A DNA stretch of 64,000 bases, taken from contig JAUVVQ010000004.1 of the NCBI GenBank assembly GCA_030604525.1, positions 1 through 64,000 of the forward strand, read 5' to 3'. Positions 30,415 to 36,568 of this stretch are shown one piece after another. Origin of the DNA: Phycisphaerae bacterium (GTDB lineage Bacteria > Planctomycetota > Phycisphaerae > Sedimentisphaerales > Anaerobacaceae). The position numbers and the translations under genes were made by a program. Under the pieces are notes generated by a model. That model was not told the DNA's origin and searched no databases. It saw nothing but the letters and a program-made list of their open reading frames with translations. How positions within the stretch are numbered: position 1 is the first letter of the stretch; the number at the start of each line of letters is the position of its first letter.

Positions 30415-31203
30415 TCAAAGAGTTTTTTTAACATCGCTGATAAATTTGCTGATTTCTGCCAGCATCTTATCTTTGCTGCCTAAATTTTCCTCTATAATTT
30501 TTACTATTCTTGAGCCGATTATCACACCGTCGGCGCCGAGTTTTGCAATCGATGCTGCGTGCTCGGGCTTGCTGATGCCGAAACCTACGCATACCGGCAC
30601 CTTTGTTAATCTCTTCAGCTTGTTCAAAAATCCCTCTACCAAACCGGAAAGCTTATCCCTGCTGCCCGTTACACCCAGAAGTGAAACTGCATATATAAAC
30701 CCCGTGGTTTTCGAAGCAATCTGCTTTATTCGCTCATCCCTGGTATTGGGTGTGGCCATAAAGACGGTCTCAAGACCTGCCGCCCTGGCTGGTTCGATTA
30801 TTTCATCTGCATCATTAATATTCAAATCGGCAATTAAAACACTGTTCACTCCCGCCCGGGCAAAATCCTCGAAGAATTTTTCCTTCCCGTATTGATAAAC
30901 CAGATTGTAATACATCAAAAGCCCAATCGGTATATCTTTATATGCTTTGACCTTGCCGATAAACTCGCGGGCCTTTTTAACGTTCATACCGTTCTTTGCG
31001 GCTCTAATATCCGCCTTTTGAATAGTAGGGCCGTCCGCAATAGGGTCGGAAAAAGGAATACCAAGCTCAAGTATATCGGCTCCTGCATCAATCGATGCCT
31101 TTACTATCGAGAGACTCGTCTGCAAGTCCGGGTCACCGATTACAAAAAATGGAACCAATGCCGTTTTGGTCTCTGAAAATACCTGCTTGTATGTTCGCAT
31201 CAA
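30415..31203 (-). CDS. trpA: Tryptophan synthase alpha chain
   Basis: LVPFFVIGDPDLQTSLSIVKASIDAGADILELGIPFSDPIADGPTIQ; PVCVGFGISKPEHA; DGVIIGSRIV. Confidence 0.97.
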   Translation of the reverse strand: MMRTYKQVFSETKTALVPFFVIGDPDLQTSLSIVKASIDAGADILELGIPFSDPIADGPTIQKADIRAAKNGMNVKKAREFIGKVKAYKDIPIGLLMYYNLVYQYGKEKFFEDFARAGVNSVLIADLNINDADEIIEPARAAGLETVFMATPNTRDERIKQIASKTTGFIYAVSLLGVTGSRDKLSGLVEGFLNKLKRLTKVPVCVGFGISKPEHAASIAKLGADGVIIGSRIVKIIEENLGSKDKMLAEISKFISDVKKTL

Positions 31204-31240
31204 ATATTACCTCACTGTAATTATCAAAATCCCTTTATAT

Positions 31241-32416
31241 TTATCCGGCGGGACGGCACTGTTCCACAATCCCCACATCTTTGTCACCGCGTCCGGAAAG
31301 ATTTACCACCACTATGGCCTCGCCGTCTAATTTTCCTTTTTGACTGCGAAGATACGCCAAGGCGTGTGAGCTTTCCAATGCCGGTAAAATACCCTCCGTT
31401 TTGCAAAGCAGCTCGAAGGCATCGAGAACATCTGTGTCTTCAGCAGCCACGTATTCAGCCCTGCCGCTGTCTTTCAGGAGACAGTGTTCCGGCCCCACAC
31501 CCGGATAATCAAGACCGGCGCTTACCGACTCGGTCTCGTAAATCTGTCCTTCTTCATCCTGTAGTAAATAAGACTTTGCTCCGTGAAGTATGCCAACTTT
31601 GCCTTTGAGAAGAGTTGCTGCATGTTCTCTGGTTTTGATTCCCTTACCGCCTGCTTCGACGCCGATTAATCTTACGTCCTTGTCGTCAATAAAGCTGGAG
31701 AAAATACCTATCGCATTGCTTCCACCGCCCACGCAGGCAACAATCAAATCAGGTAATCTGCCTAATTGCTCAAGGCATTGTGCTTTTGTTTCTTTGCCGA
31801 TACAGGTTTGAAACTCTCTGACAATTGTAGGATATGGATGTGGTCCGCAAACCGAACCGAAAAGATAAAAGGTATCAGAAACAGTGCTTGTCCAGTAGCG
31901 CAGTGCTTCGTTGATAGCGTCCTTCAATGTTCCTGTGCCGCCTTCGACCTCGATAACTTCCGCTCCGCAAAGTTTCATCTTATGGACGTTCACGCTTTGA
32001 CGAACGATGTCGGTTGAACCCATAAATACCTTTGTATCAAATCCGAAAAGCGATCCGACCATCGCCGTTGCTAAACCGTGCTGACCTGCACCGGTTTCTG
32101 CTATCAGTTTGCTTTTGCCCATATATTTTGCCAGCAGTCCCTGTCCCAGCGTGTTGTTCATCTTATGAGCTCCTCCGTGCAGAAGGTCTTCGCGCTTCAG
32201 ATAAACCTTAAAACCAACTTGCTCGCTGAACCTTTTTGCATAATACAAAGGAGTTGGCCGGCCGGCGTAGGATTTTAAAAGCTGCTTCAGCTCTTGCGAG
32301 AATTGTTCATCCTGGTAGAAACGGTAAAACGCATCCTCTAATTCCTCAAGTGCCGGCATCAAAACCTCCGGAACGTAAAAGCCGCCATAAGTTCCAAATC
32401 TGCCCGTATGTTTCAT
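31241..32416 (-). CDS. trpB: Tryptophan synthase beta chain
   Basis: [76 protein letters not shown]. Confidence 0.98.
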
Positions 32417-32431
32417 AATTACCCCTTGTTT

Positions 32432-33055
32432 TTATCCGCGTAAATGTTGTATATTATCGAATAACTGTTTCATTTTTTTCTTATCTTTCCTGCCCGGCTC
32501 GCTTTCTATTCCACTGCATACGTCTATACCATATACACCCAGCTTGACAGCTTTTGCGGCATTATCCGGATTTATCCCGCCTGCAAGAAAAACACGTTTG
32601 TTTATATGACCGATTATATTCCAGTCAAAAGTCAGGCCGGTTCCGCCGTATTTGCTCGGGTCGAATGCATCAAGTAAAATCGCATCGGTAAAGTATTCTT
32701 CAGCTTTGTCAACGTCCTTTTGTTTTTTAACGCGAATGGCTTTCATTATTTTGACGTTATGATTAAGAAATTCCTTACAAAATGCCGGTTCCTCATCACC
32801 GTGAAGCTGCACCCAGTCCAGTTGGCAGCGGTCAGCAGTCTCCATAATTTCATCCAGCTCGGCGTTTACAAAAACGCCCACAATATCCGTAAAGGCCGGC
32901 AGCTTATCGATAATCCTGGCTGCATCTTCCGGACTAATGTAACGGGAACTGCCTGGATAAAAATTAAAACCCAGTAGGTCCGCTCCCATATCTATCGCCG
33001 CCCTGGCGTCCTCATAGGTGGTAATCCCGCAAATTTTGACCTTTACTATTAGCAT
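32432..33055 (-). CDS. trpF: Phosphoribosylanthranilate isomerase
   Basis: VKICGITTYEDA, GADLLGFNFYPGSSRYISPE, VQLHGDE, FLAGGINPDNA, GIDVCSGIESEPGRKD. Confidence 0.96.
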   Translation of the reverse strand: MLIVKVKICGITTYEDARAAIDMGADLLGFNFYPGSSRYISPEDAARIIDKLPAFTDIVGVFVNAELDEIMETADRCQLDWVQLHGDEEPAFCKEFLNHNVKIMKAIRVKKQKDVDKAEEYFTDAILLDAFDPSKYGGTGLTFDWNIIGHINKRVFLAGGINPDNAAKAVKLGVYGIDVCSGIESEPGRKDKKKMKQLFDNIQHLRG

Positions 33056-33095
33056 CTTTTAATCTTTCCGACTATCAAATTTCCTTTATAGAGTG

Positions 33096-34115
33096 TCAAC
33101 CTTTATTTGAGATGGCAATAAGTTTTTCAAGGCACCCTATCGCCTTGCCATCTGTGATGGATTGCTCTGCCATTTTAATCGCTGATTCGAAATCATCAAC
33201 CAAATTCGCTACAATAATGCCCGCTGCGGCATTGACGACTACGATATCTTTTCTGGCTCCTTTTTCCTTCCTTATAAGTATATCCTTGATAATTCTCGCA
33301 TTCGTATATGTGTCACCGCCTTTGAGTTCCTCAAGTGACACTTTTTTAATGCCGAAATCTTCAGGGTTAAACTCCTTTGTCTTTATTTCCCCCTCCTTTA
33401 ATGTCCTCATCTTGGTAAGTCCACTAATGCTTATCTCATCCATCCCGTCGCTGTGAACCACCATCGCCCGCTTAGCTCCTAAAAGCTTATGCGTCTCGAT
33501 TATGCTGTCCAGAAGATGCTCACCGTAAACCCCCATTACCTGTGACTTGACGCCGGCGGGATTAGCCAAGGGACCAAGTATATTAAAAGCTGTTCGGAAG
33601 TCTAAACTTTTGCGAATCGGCTGAACAAATTTCATCGCCGGATGAAATTTTGGGGCAAACATAAAGCCGACATGTGCTTCTTTTATGCACTTTGCCACAA
33701 CCTCCGGCTCAGCATTAATTTTCACTCCAAGCTTTTCCAGGACGTCCGCTGAACCGCATTTGCTGGTGATACTGCGGTTGCCGTGTTTGGCTACATACGC
33801 CCCCGCACCAGCTGCAACCAGAGCCGCTGCAGTGGATACATTAAATGTTTTTACGCTTGCTCCACCTGTCCCGCAGGTGTCGATGAGGTTATCGACATCG
33901 ACTTTTACCGCTACCGCATGTTCACGAAGTGATTTTGCAAAGCCCGCAATCTCTTCTGGCATCGCTTGCTTAATACGCATCGCCGCCAGAAAAGCGGCTA
34001 TTTGAACATCTGCAACTTCTCCTTCGAAAATCGTATCCAGAAGCCCCTTGGCCTGTTCGAAGGTAAGGTCATTCTTCTCCAGAATAATGTCAAGATATTC
34101 GGTTATTGTCGCCAT
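33096..34115 (-). CDS. trpD: Anthranilate phosphoribosyltransferase
   Basis: DTCGTGGASVKTFNVSTAAALVAAGAGAYVAKHGNRSITSKCGSADVLEKLG; FMFAPKFHPAMK; FNILGPLANPA. Confidence 0.98.
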   Translation of the reverse strand: MATITEYLDIILEKNDLTFEQAKGLLDTIFEGEVADVQIAAFLAAMRIKQAMPEEIAGFAKSLREHAVAVKVDVDNLIDTCGTGGASVKTFNVSTAAALVAAGAGAYVAKHGNRSITSKCGSADVLEKLGVKINAEPEVVAKCIKEAHVGFMFAPKFHPAMKFVQPIRKSLDFRTAFNILGPLANPAGVKSQVMGVYGEHLLDSIIETHKLLGAKRAMVVHSDGMDEISISGLTKMRTLKEGEIKTKEFNPEDFGIKKVSLEELKGGDTYTNARIIKDILIRKEKGARKDIVVVNAAAGIIVANLVDDFESAIKMAEQSITDGKAIGCLEKLIAISNKG

Positions 34116-34128
34116 AATTTTCTCCCTT

Positions 34129-34728
34129 TTATTTTTTCGTTTTCTGAGCTATTTGCAGAATATTTTCGATTATTTTACCGCCGGCCGGCGTAAGAATACT
34201 TTCCGGATGAAACTGAACGCCGTATATCGGCAGCTCCTTGTGCTCTATGCCCATTGGTATTCCTTCAAACTCAGCAGTCCTCTCAAGACAATCGGGCAGC
34301 TTAACTGCGCAGAGACTATGATACCGTCCTGCCTGAAGCGGATTTTCCAGCCCGGCGAATATCCCCCGTTCATTGTGATTTATCCTGGAGCCCTTGCCGT
34401 GCATCGGCTGCGGGGCGTGTCCGATTTCTCCGCCGAAATACTGAACTATTGCCTGCATACCAAGGCACACTCCGAAAATCGGCAGCTTGTCTTTAAAGTA
34501 ATCTATTGCCGAAAGTGTTACCCCCGCTCCATCCGGAGTTCCGGGACCGGGTGATATTATCAAAAGCTCCGGGGCAAATTCTTCCGCTATCTGCTTTAAC
34601 TCCTCCAAAGGAGTGTCCGCTCGATACACCCTCGCCAGAGAATCTCTCTTACAGAAATCATCGACAAGATTATAAGTGAACGAATCGAAGTTATCAATAA
34701 ACAATACTTTTTTTTTCTCTTTTTCCAT
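34129..34728 (-). CDS. trpG: Anthranilate synthase glutamine amidotransferase component
   Basis: FIDNFDSFTYNLVDDF, ISPGPGTPDGAG, FGVCLGMQAIVQYFGG, YGVQFHPESILT. Confidence 0.96.
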   Translation of the reverse strand: MEKEKKKVLFIDNFDSFTYNLVDDFCKRDSLARVYRADTPLEELKQIAEEFAPELLIISPGPGTPDGAGVTLSAIDYFKDKLPIFGVCLGMQAIVQYFGGEIGHAPQPMHGKGSRINHNERGIFAGLENPLQAGRYHSLCAVKLPDCLERTAEFEGIPMGIEHKELPIYGVQFHPESILTPAGGKIIENILQIAQKTKK

Positions 34729-34743
34729 TTCTATCCCCTGTCG

Positions 34744-36342
34744 TTAATTGCCTCGAATCGCCCGCAGGCACGAATTCGCTTTATGCCGGGTCTCTTCAAA
34801 TTCCGTCTTCGGCACGCTGTCGTGAACTATCCCCGCTCCCACGCGAATGTAAGCTGTATGGTCCTTTACCTGTAGACTCCGTATTGTTATACAACTATCG
34901 AACTGTCCGTCAACGGTTAAGTACATAACCGCTCCGCCGTAATAACCGCGCTTGCTTTTCTCAAGCTCGCGAATTATCTTCATCGCCTCAATCTTCGGCG
35001 CTCCCGTAAGCGTGCCCATATTCATTGTTGCAAGATAGGCGCTTAATGCGTCCAGCTCGGAAGAAAGCTCGCCTTTGACGTTGCTTACAAGGTGCTGGAC
35101 GGACTCATATTTTTCCACTGTAAGAAGTTCCGTTACCACTCTGCTTCCCGGCTTGGCTACCCTCGCTATATCGTTCCTCGCCAAATCCACCAGCATCATA
35201 TGCTCCGCTAATTCCTTTCTGTCGAGTTTTAGCTCCGCCTCATATCGGAGGTCTGTATCGGCATCGATTTTATCCCCCATCCGCCCGCGTGGTTTTGTTC
35301 CTGCTATAGGCCTGATTTCCACATACCGGCGGTCGCCACCGCTGACACGAAGATTCAGCTCCGGACTAGAACCCATCATTATCGTATTCGGCGTGCTGAG
35401 ATAAAACATATAAGGCGAGGGATTCAGTTTCCTTAACCGCTTGTAAACATCCAGCGGCTCATCGAGGCAGGGCTCTGTTATTGTTCGGCTAAGCACCACC
35501 TGAAAAATGTCACCATCCAGGATGTGTCCCTTGGCATTTTTTACCATATCTTCGTATTCATCCTGTTCGGTATCCGTCGAAGCCGCAGCCGGCTCGCCTT
35601 GGTATCTTTGACTGGTAGGTTGCTCGAATCTTGATATGTTAAAATAGTAATCAAAGCAACCCTGTGCCTCCTCGATAGCCGCCTGTCGGTCTCCGTTGGT
35701 TATCATTACATTGACTATGATATAACCCTGATTGTGCTCGTGGTCCATCAGAAAAATATTATCAGCAAAGTAAAGCTCGTAATCCGGATTTTTCAGAACA
35801 TCTTCTTTACTGCCGGGAAGCTTTTCAAACTGGTCTATAAAATCATAGCTGATTGCCCCCAGCAGACCGCAGGTGACACGGAACGGCTTGCTTGCCAGAC
35901 GAAACGCAAATGCCACCGCTCGTAAAACATCCATCTGGTTGGTGCTCTTAAGACGGGTATGCTCATCCACCATTTCTTCCTCCCGTTTGATTCGACCGGT
36001 TATGTTTTCTTTGCCGAATTCAATTTCTTTGCAGAATGAAAACCGCTCCTTGCCTGTCGTCCCCAGATATTTTATCATCCGCCTGCCGGTTTTAGTCAGT
36101 GACTTGATGAGAAACTTATCATCTTTGCCGGTTATATAAAGTGCCGGGTTGGCCGTCCCGAAGGTAAGCGCCTTCGTGCCGGTTAAATACTCTCTTGATT
36201 CGAACAAACAGCAGTTCTTCGCCTGGCCGTAATCGCTTAGCTTGGCAAAGAAATCCACCGGCTCATCCATCTTTATCTGTTTTACAATCGGTATGATTTG
36301 ACCGCTTCGGGCACTTTCTATTATCTTTTTGTAGCTTTCCAT
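34744..36342 (-). CDS. trpE: Anthranilate synthase component I
   Basis: Chorismate-binding motifs DIFQVVLSR, IRPIAGTKPRGR, LVDLARNDIARVAKPGSV, GTLTGAPKIEAM, YYGGAVMYL, RVGAGIVHDSVP. Start refined to MESYKK (36342), preceded by GAGGATAAAGTT; the ORF-track start at 36408 would lie inside the leader terminator. Confidence 0.95.
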   Translation of the reverse strand: MESYKKIIESARSGQIIPIVKQIKMDEPVDFFAKLSDYGQAKNCCLFESREYLTGTKALTFGTANPALYITGKDDKFLIKSLTKTGRRMIKYLGTTGKERFSFCKEIEFGKENITGRIKREEEMVDEHTRLKSTNQMDVLRAVAFAFRLASKPFRVTCGLLGAISYDFIDQFEKLPGSKEDVLKNPDYELYFADNIFLMDHEHNQGYIIVNVMITNGDRQAAIEEAQGCFDYYFNISRFEQPTSQRYQGEPAAASTDTEQDEYEDMVKNAKGHILDGDIFQVVLSRTITEPCLDEPLDVYKRLRKLNPSPYMFYLSTPNTIMMGSSPELNLRVSGGDRRYVEIRPIAGTKPRGRMGDKIDADTDLRYEAELKLDRKELAEHMMLVDLARNDIARVAKPGSRVVTELLTVEKYESVQHLVSNVKGELSSELDALSAYLATMNMGTLTGAPKIEAMKIIRELEKSKRGYYGGAVMYLTVDGQFDSCITIRSLQVKDHTAYIRVGAGIVHDSVPKTEFEETRHKANSCLRAIRGN

Positions 36343-36390: not shown

Positions 36391-36425
36391 AAAAAAAAAG
36401 CAACCCATCCTTCCAGCAGGTTGCT
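36391..36425 (-). terminator. trp leader attenuator terminator
   Basis: Minus strand: AGCAACC-tgctggaaggatg-GGTTGCT followed by a 9-nt T-tract, about 50 nt upstream of the trpE start. Confidence 0.88.
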
Positions 36426-36455
36426 CTTCTAATTTCTACGAATTTTTATAGCAAA

Positions 36456-36530
36456 TTAACGCATACCTGCCAGCATATGTCCTGCAGGCCACCACCAGTT
36501 CATAGTATTTATGCGATTAATCTGCCTCAT
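36456..36530 (-). CDS. trpL: trp leader peptide (24 aa, three consecutive Trp codons)
   Basis: Minus strand ATG AGG CAG ATT AAT CGC ATA AAT ACT ATG AAC TGG TGG TGG CCT GCA GGA CAT ATG CTG GCA GGT ATG CGT TAA = MRQINRINTMNWWWPAGHMLAGMR*. Possible shorter start at 36503 (MNWWWPAGHMLAGMR). Confidence 0.85.
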   Translation of the reverse strand: MRQINRINTMNWWWPAGHMLAGMR

Positions 36531-36539
36531 AACATATAC

Positions 36540-36568
36540 ATTAAAACAATTATCACGGCTTTTGTCAA
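36540..36568 (-). promoter_or_regulatory. Sigma70-type promoter of the trp operon
   Basis: Minus strand TTGACA (36568-36563), 17-nt spacer, TTTAAT (36545-36540), immediately upstream of the leader peptide. Confidence 0.75.

Follow-up and report, generated by a model that had tools for sequence, protein, structure and literature searches.

The minus strand of the 64-kb window (the whole stretch of DNA analyzed here, all 64,000 nucleotides) carries a tryptophan operon, and the region upstream of its first gene, trpE, raised the question of how the expression of this operon is controlled. The first-pass annotation had proposed a complete transcription attenuator of the classical type, with a leader peptide containing three consecutive Trp codons. 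The letters and coordinates it gave for the promoter, leader open reading frame (ORF), Trp codons, segments 1 to 4, terminator, and trpE ribosome binding site all proved to be accurate. Our comparative analysis indicated that transcription of the trpEGDFBA operon is very probably attenuated in this region by a ribosome-mediated mechanism.

Layout of the trp leader and its operon

The leader, whose elements all lie on the minus strand, begins with a near-consensus sigma-70-type promoter, TTGACA-17-TTTAAT (36540..36568), with TTGACA at 36568-36563 and TTTAAT at 36545-36540. It is followed by a leader ORF of 24 codons, MRQINRINTMNWWWPAGHMLAGMR* (36456..36530), which extends from an ATG at 36530-36528 to a stop codon at 36458-36456. 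The presumed sensor, TGG TGG TGG (36489..36497), was assigned from codon conservation in aligned leaders. Segment 1 (CCTGC, 36484..36488), supported by covariation and by the pairing of own versus crossed arms, is the partner of segment 2 (CTGGCAGGT, 36465..36473). Segment 2 can alternatively pair with segment 3 (ACCTGCTGG, 36413..36421), both segments being supported by covariation, and segment 3 is at once the antiterminator partner of segment 2 and the 5′ part of the terminator. This intrinsic terminator (36391..36425), recognized from sequence and covariation, consists of the hairpin AGCAACC...GGTTGCT (36425-36399) and a T9 tract (36399-36391). A further, outer helix, here referred to as P0, was absent from the first-pass annotation. 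Its 5′ arm (36511..36526) coincides with codons 2 to 7 of the leader ORF, so that the start of the ORF (36526-36511) pairs with 36464-36450, a 3′ arm (36450..36464) located just behind segment 2; both arms were identified from the minimum free energy (MFE) fold, covariation, and own-versus-cross pairing. P0 encloses stem 1:2, and its coexistence with stem 2:3 would require a pseudoknot.

Several observations bear on whether such a leader could arise by chance. The 13-mer TGGTGGTGGCCTG is found at a single site in the 64 kb and did not turn up in any of 100 shuffles; shuffling the 600 nt ahead of trpE 2,000 times never produced a WWW ORF; and of the seven short ATG-initiated ORFs in the window that contain WW or W.W, the trp leader alone has a promoter at a distance of 4 to 12 nt. 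Because of the uniqueness of the 13-mer, the lack of shuffled WWW ORFs, and this exclusive promoter spacing, we regard the leader as more than a chance occurrence. The MFE of the leader amounted to −46.5 kcal/mol, with a z score of −4.7 against dinucleotide shuffles.

Downstream of the terminator, a GAGG Shine-Dalgarno sequence (36354-36351) lies ahead of the ATG of trpE at 36342. The first gene of the operon, trpE (34744..36342), encodes anthranilate synthase component I (NF010079, 491 bits, above the cut-off), and its start aligns with those of relatives. It is followed on the same strand by trpG (34129-34728), trpD (33096-34115), trpF (32432-33055), trpB (31241-32416), and trpA (30415-about 31200), all identified by NCBIfam models, and the order behind the leader is therefore trpEGDFBA, made up entirely of Trp biosynthesis genes. 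The trpC gene is absent from the operon (30415-36342) and resides unlinked on another contig (G000:C26:16088-16867); a second fragment resembling indole-3-glycerol phosphate synthase (IGPS) is found on contig C9. We also considered that trpE might have been acquired from Gammaproteobacteria, which proved unsupported, as TrpE shares 37% identity with its E. coli counterpart and stands about equally far from the TrpE of relatives within the class.

Conservation, distribution, and start of the leader

The close relatives available for comparison were metagenome-assembled genomes (MAGs) of Planctomycetota, class Phycisphaerae, many of them labelled Sedimentisphaerales. The lineage that the first-pass annotation had conditionally suggested, Planctomycetota/Phycisphaerae, was thereby borne out. 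A TrpE search over 61 genomes, combined with upstream sequences and a scan of named genomes, yielded 99 distinct trpE upstream regions, of which 96 were long enough to be assessed. In 95 of these 96 regions, we found a short ORF containing Trp codons, usually as WWW-Pro; the sole exception, L146, offered 389 nt. Among the 93 leaders with a clear promoter, 63 contained three Trp codons and 26 contained two, and the commonest peptide pattern was M-R/K-Q-I-N-R-x-N-T-x-x-W-W-W-P. When 50 leaders were aligned, the first TGG codon was found in all 50, the second in 47, and the third in 44. The U tract was mostly located 93 to 94 nt downstream of the Trp run.

Some leaders deviated from this layout. 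L042 and L046 of family f7 contain a single Trp codon (YWRRPQA) in a still similar arrangement and possibly represent a weakened or decaying sensor. In L007, L050, L021, L035, and L040, in-frame inserts separate the P0 arm from the Trp codons and leave the reading frame intact; these inserts are partly palindromic, for example CCGCCAAGGCGG, CCGCTAAGGCGG, and CTAAGGGATGCCTTA. In L016, L017, and L018, runs of near-repeats such as ACGATATACGA lengthen the gap between the terminator and trpE and give the impression of a short repeat having spread.

A covariance model built on 21 leaders matched 45 of 299 Phycisphaerae genomes, including 43 from Sedimentisphaerales, and in a sample of the phylum, confident matches (E < 0.001) were obtained exclusively in this order. 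Judged by these model matches, the main leader type is nearly confined to Sedimentisphaerales. In other orders of the class, none of 30 trpE loci and none of 20 trpD upstream regions had a real-looking attenuator. Upstream of hisG, no His leader was found in 30 relatives. Two exceptions were encountered within the class. In G322, which belongs to another order, the leader MKRRNLSNFTWWWPTDIDAGG (L085, 1685-1822) precedes trpD-trpC-trpF-trpB, genes named from reading their translations, and not trpE; it looks real, encodes a WWWP peptide, and has its ATG about 7 nt from the promoter. This arrangement suggests transfer of the attenuator or its re-use on another trp operon. In G226, a genome of another family, a leader typical of the order (L087) lies on contig C735 of 2,297 nt, a small contig of a fragmented MAG that was probably mis-binned. 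Extra model matches in G005 and G311 were discarded as ordinary terminators behind another gene.

The position of the promoter relative to the ORF was conserved as well. In 89 of the 93 leaders, the best promoter-like match within the upstream 200 nt preceded the ATG of the leader by 6 to 10 nt, and in 91 of the 93 its spacer measured 17 nt. The leader ATG is not preceded by a Shine-Dalgarno sequence (match of ≤3 nt in 79/93); at trpE, the match extends over ≥4 nt in 75/93. Transcription usually starts six or seven bases past the −10 box and, from the position of this box, the 5′ UTR would therefore comprise 0 to 4 nt. The leader transcript probably has no 5′ UTR, or almost none, and this leaderless start is probably a conserved feature. 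The near-leaderless spacing had already been remarked upon in the first-pass annotation, together with the proviso that the internal ATG at 36503 might be used instead. The spacing withstood the comparison, whereas the internal ATG did not, as Met occurs at this position in just 3 of 50 leaders and the promoter match upstream of it is poor (7/12). Since the internal ATG is not conserved, the first ATG represents the likely start. In two Sedimentisphaerales families with another type of TrpE, Trp-rich ORFs are leadered: their 5′ UTR is longer and includes a ribosome site rich in purines (L089, L090 and L092, L093, L094, L096), and their peptides differ, as exemplified by MITCAYNSFYWCWLPEK and MSIEAIKTRRLWWWRPYPCARCGI. 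Predicted leadered and leaderless attenuators thus coexist within Sedimentisphaerales.

Covarying helices and the predicted switch

Pairing of the alternative stems was examined in two sets of leaders. Among 21 close relatives, stem 2:3 was 92.6% paired, with two-sided changes in 6 of 9 pairs, and the values for stems 3:4 and 1:2 were 97.4% and 85.7%, respectively. In 48 leaders, two-sided changes were seen in 25 of 28 pairs with a score matched by no shuffle; this alignment, in which one row is a weak antisense match in L009, was fitted to P0, 1:2, and 3:4 and thus leans towards those helices. Stem 2:3, which lies outside the model, was 92.5% paired in the 48 leaders, a value reached by none of 500 shuffles and also exceeding slid versions of the stem. 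The terminator stem 3:4 had 97 to 98% of its cells paired in both sets. In an alignment-independent test, the arms of each leader paired better with each other than with swapped arms in every one of the four helices (P = 0.0005 in each case). Kinship was controlled through the control arm pairs alone; for two unrelated ones no such difference was seen, and for a third (segment 1 with segment 4) it was weak. Collectively, comparison of sequences among relatives showed the ORF, the Trp codons, the promoter spacing, and the four helices. Conservation of Trp codons and alternative stems in relatives was the comparison that the first-pass annotation had put forward to challenge its own proposal, and both were found.

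From this arrangement, we infer transcription, translation, start site, stalling, and termination of the leader as follows. RNA polymerase would start at the leader ATG or within a few bases of it, and the mRNA on which the first ribosome loads would have little or no 5′ UTR. When charged Trp-tRNA is scarce, the ribosome would stall on the three UGG codons and cover the 5′ arm of P0 and segment 1; segment 2 would then pair with segment 3, no terminator would form, and the operon would be transcribed. When Trp-tRNA is plentiful, the ribosome would reach the stop codon and cover segment 2, allowing stem 3:4 to form and transcription to terminate after about 140 nt. If no ribosome is loaded, P0 and stem 1:2 would sequester segment 2, and the terminator would again form.

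We folded 88 leaders under ribosome constraints, as transcripts ending just before segment 4 in which the ribosome-covered bases were kept single-stranded. Under an energy model that takes no account of kinetics, pausing, or tertiary structure, stem 2:3 engaged a share of segment 3 that was 0.21 with no ribosome, 0.65 to 0.70 with the A site on the Trp codons, and 0.05 with the ribosome at the stop codon. The antiterminator share exceeded one half in 77 to 82 of the 88 leaders when the ribosome was placed on the Trp codons and in 1 of 88 when it was placed at the stop codon. Along the ORF, the share was about 0.4 before the Trp codons, rose at the first of them, and dropped to nearly nil once segment 2 was covered; with the downstream sequence shuffled, it was 0.11. 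For E. coli trpL, nearly the same procedure with a slightly looser count gave 0.30 with no ribosome, 0.62 on the Trp codons, and 0.07 at the stop codon. In the leader of the window, with the ribosome at the stop codon, segment 3 was paired at 0.57 over all partners and at 0.0 with segment 2; its terminating state is less clean because segment 3 is partly paired with other upstream sequence. By the same simple folding test, not every leadered Sedimentisphaerales variant showed a clean switch, and G322 did not show one either. Conservation among the relatives, covariation in each of the stems, and the switch predicted by folding all support the proposal of a classical Trp-codon attenuator of trpE.

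The outer helix requires separate consideration, as its columns double as the RQINR codons of the peptide. P0 might thus be a by-product of amino acid conservation or of leaderless start sequences and take no part in the switch, and its pairing, at 75 to 88%, is indeed weaker than that of 2:3 and 3:4. However, even among the 21 close relatives, where it was 88.1% paired, two-sided changes occurred in 5 of 12 pairs, and they occurred in 12 of 12 in the 48-leader alignment, which was fitted to P0. Its own arms also outpaired swapped arms, and other families carry the arm pairs GGCTCA/TGAGCC and GGTTCA/TGAACC. Moreover, blanking the 5′ arm in silico raised the ribosome-free antiterminator share from 0.21 to 0.43, which argues against a by-product and suggests that P0 probably helps to make termination the default. 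We therefore consider a by-product unlikely and P0, with good confidence, a functional part of the switch.

The same conservation bears on two other readings of the whole leader. An arrest peptide of the TnaC type, in which the conserved M-R/K-Q-I-N-R...WWWP sequence itself would stall the ribosome and sense tryptophan or something else, would account for the conserved N-terminal residues and for the Pro behind the Trp run. Yet the P0 arm is made up of these N-terminal codons, whose changes in the other families are accompanied by matching ones in the partner arm, and the Pro codons (CCT) form segment 1, whose pairing is kept where Leu replaces Pro (e.g., L034). The RQINR start can thus be attributed to selection of the P0 arm, and the Pro to selection of segment 1, at the RNA level. 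With both peptide conservations explained in this way, and with stalling at high Trp having the wrong sign for a biosynthetic operon, peptide arrest is very unlikely. The extensive conserved structure around the ORF, outer helix included, would also suit a leader that binds a small molecule or a protein (a Trp riboswitch or a TRAP-type leader), in which a ligand would switch the stems and the ORF would be incidental. Conservation, however, peaks at the run of Trp codons, which occupies a short ORF with a constant position downstream of a promoter, and the unpaired loops are not conserved in the manner of a binding pocket. In addition, no Rfam family matched at its gathering score and nothing convincing emerged at a lax threshold. 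A ligand-binding leader therefore appears very unlikely as well, and ribosome-mediated attenuation is the reading that we adopt.

Relation to known attenuators

Sensing of tryptophan through ribosome stalling on leader Trp codons has long been known in E. coli. Like E. coli trpL (Rfam Trp_leader, RF00513), the leader described here has a short ORF containing Trp codons, stems 1:2, 2:3, and 3:4, a U tract before trpE, and a predicted response to ribosome position. In contrast, the E. coli mRNA is leadered, contains two Trp codons, and is not known to form an outer helix at the start of its ORF. Sequence kinship was lacking, as E. coli trpL scored 14.3 bits (E = 0.28) with the Sedimentisphaerales covariance model. 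Within the window, RF00513 had no match even at E values up to 10, and His_leader (RF00514) scored 18.9 bits (E = 0.7) against a gathering threshold of 49, so membership in an Rfam leader family was rejected. The leader combines an ORF with cognate codons, mutually exclusive covarying helices, a terminator before the first gene, and an in silico response to ribosome position. On these grounds, it is predicted to work like the E. coli trp attenuator, and by sequence it is not of the same RNA family.

Individual features have parallels in other phyla. The trpL/rnTrpL leader of Sinorhizobium meliloti is leaderless, its RNA beginning at the ATG, and attenuates trpE(G) (PMC7298713); it shares the leaderless start that the promoter spacing implies here and differs in phylum. 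In the ilvBNC leader of Corynebacterium glutamicum, transcription starts one nucleotide from the leader ATG, and the start region is shielded by the first hairpin, H1, which also functions as an anti-antiterminator (PMC11857589). H1 is the nearest analogue of P0, albeit in a system for branched-chain amino acids and in another phylum. Corynebacterium and Streptomyces possess trp attenuators with double or triple UGG codons, a terminator, and an antiterminator (PMC1262725); these actinobacterial systems resemble the present one in their UGG runs and terminator/antiterminator and differ in phylum. According to a 2010 survey, leader-peptide systems had until then been known from Proteobacteria and Actinobacteria alone; the survey itself contributed a further case, hisS of Firmicutes (PMC2965389). 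In line with the first-pass annotation, which was not aware of the mechanism in this phylum, we found no description of leader-peptide attenuators of amino acid operons in Planctomycetota in the open-access literature. The evidence for novelty is weak because the search was limited to open-access texts; as far as searched, the mechanism is known, and the phylum and the architecture, a leaderless start combined with an outer helix at the start region, are new. We tentatively consider a two-input switch, in which P0 would keep the operon off until a ribosome loads on the bare ATG, as a readout of leaderless initiation, and Trp-tRNA would then tune expression; the released leaderless RNA of ~140 nt might act in trans, as in S. 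meliloti. We regard this extension as possible and rather doubtful.

The attenuator is conserved through one order of Planctomycetota and predicts tight coupling of transcription and translation at the trp locus of Sedimentisphaerales, where the leader also offers a simple reporter of tryptophan starvation. Its near confinement to one order, together with the occurrence of leadered and leaderless forms within it, provides a means of testing whether attenuators arose repeatedly or were converted. Finally, it suggests that leaderless starts serve leader peptides in yet another phylum.
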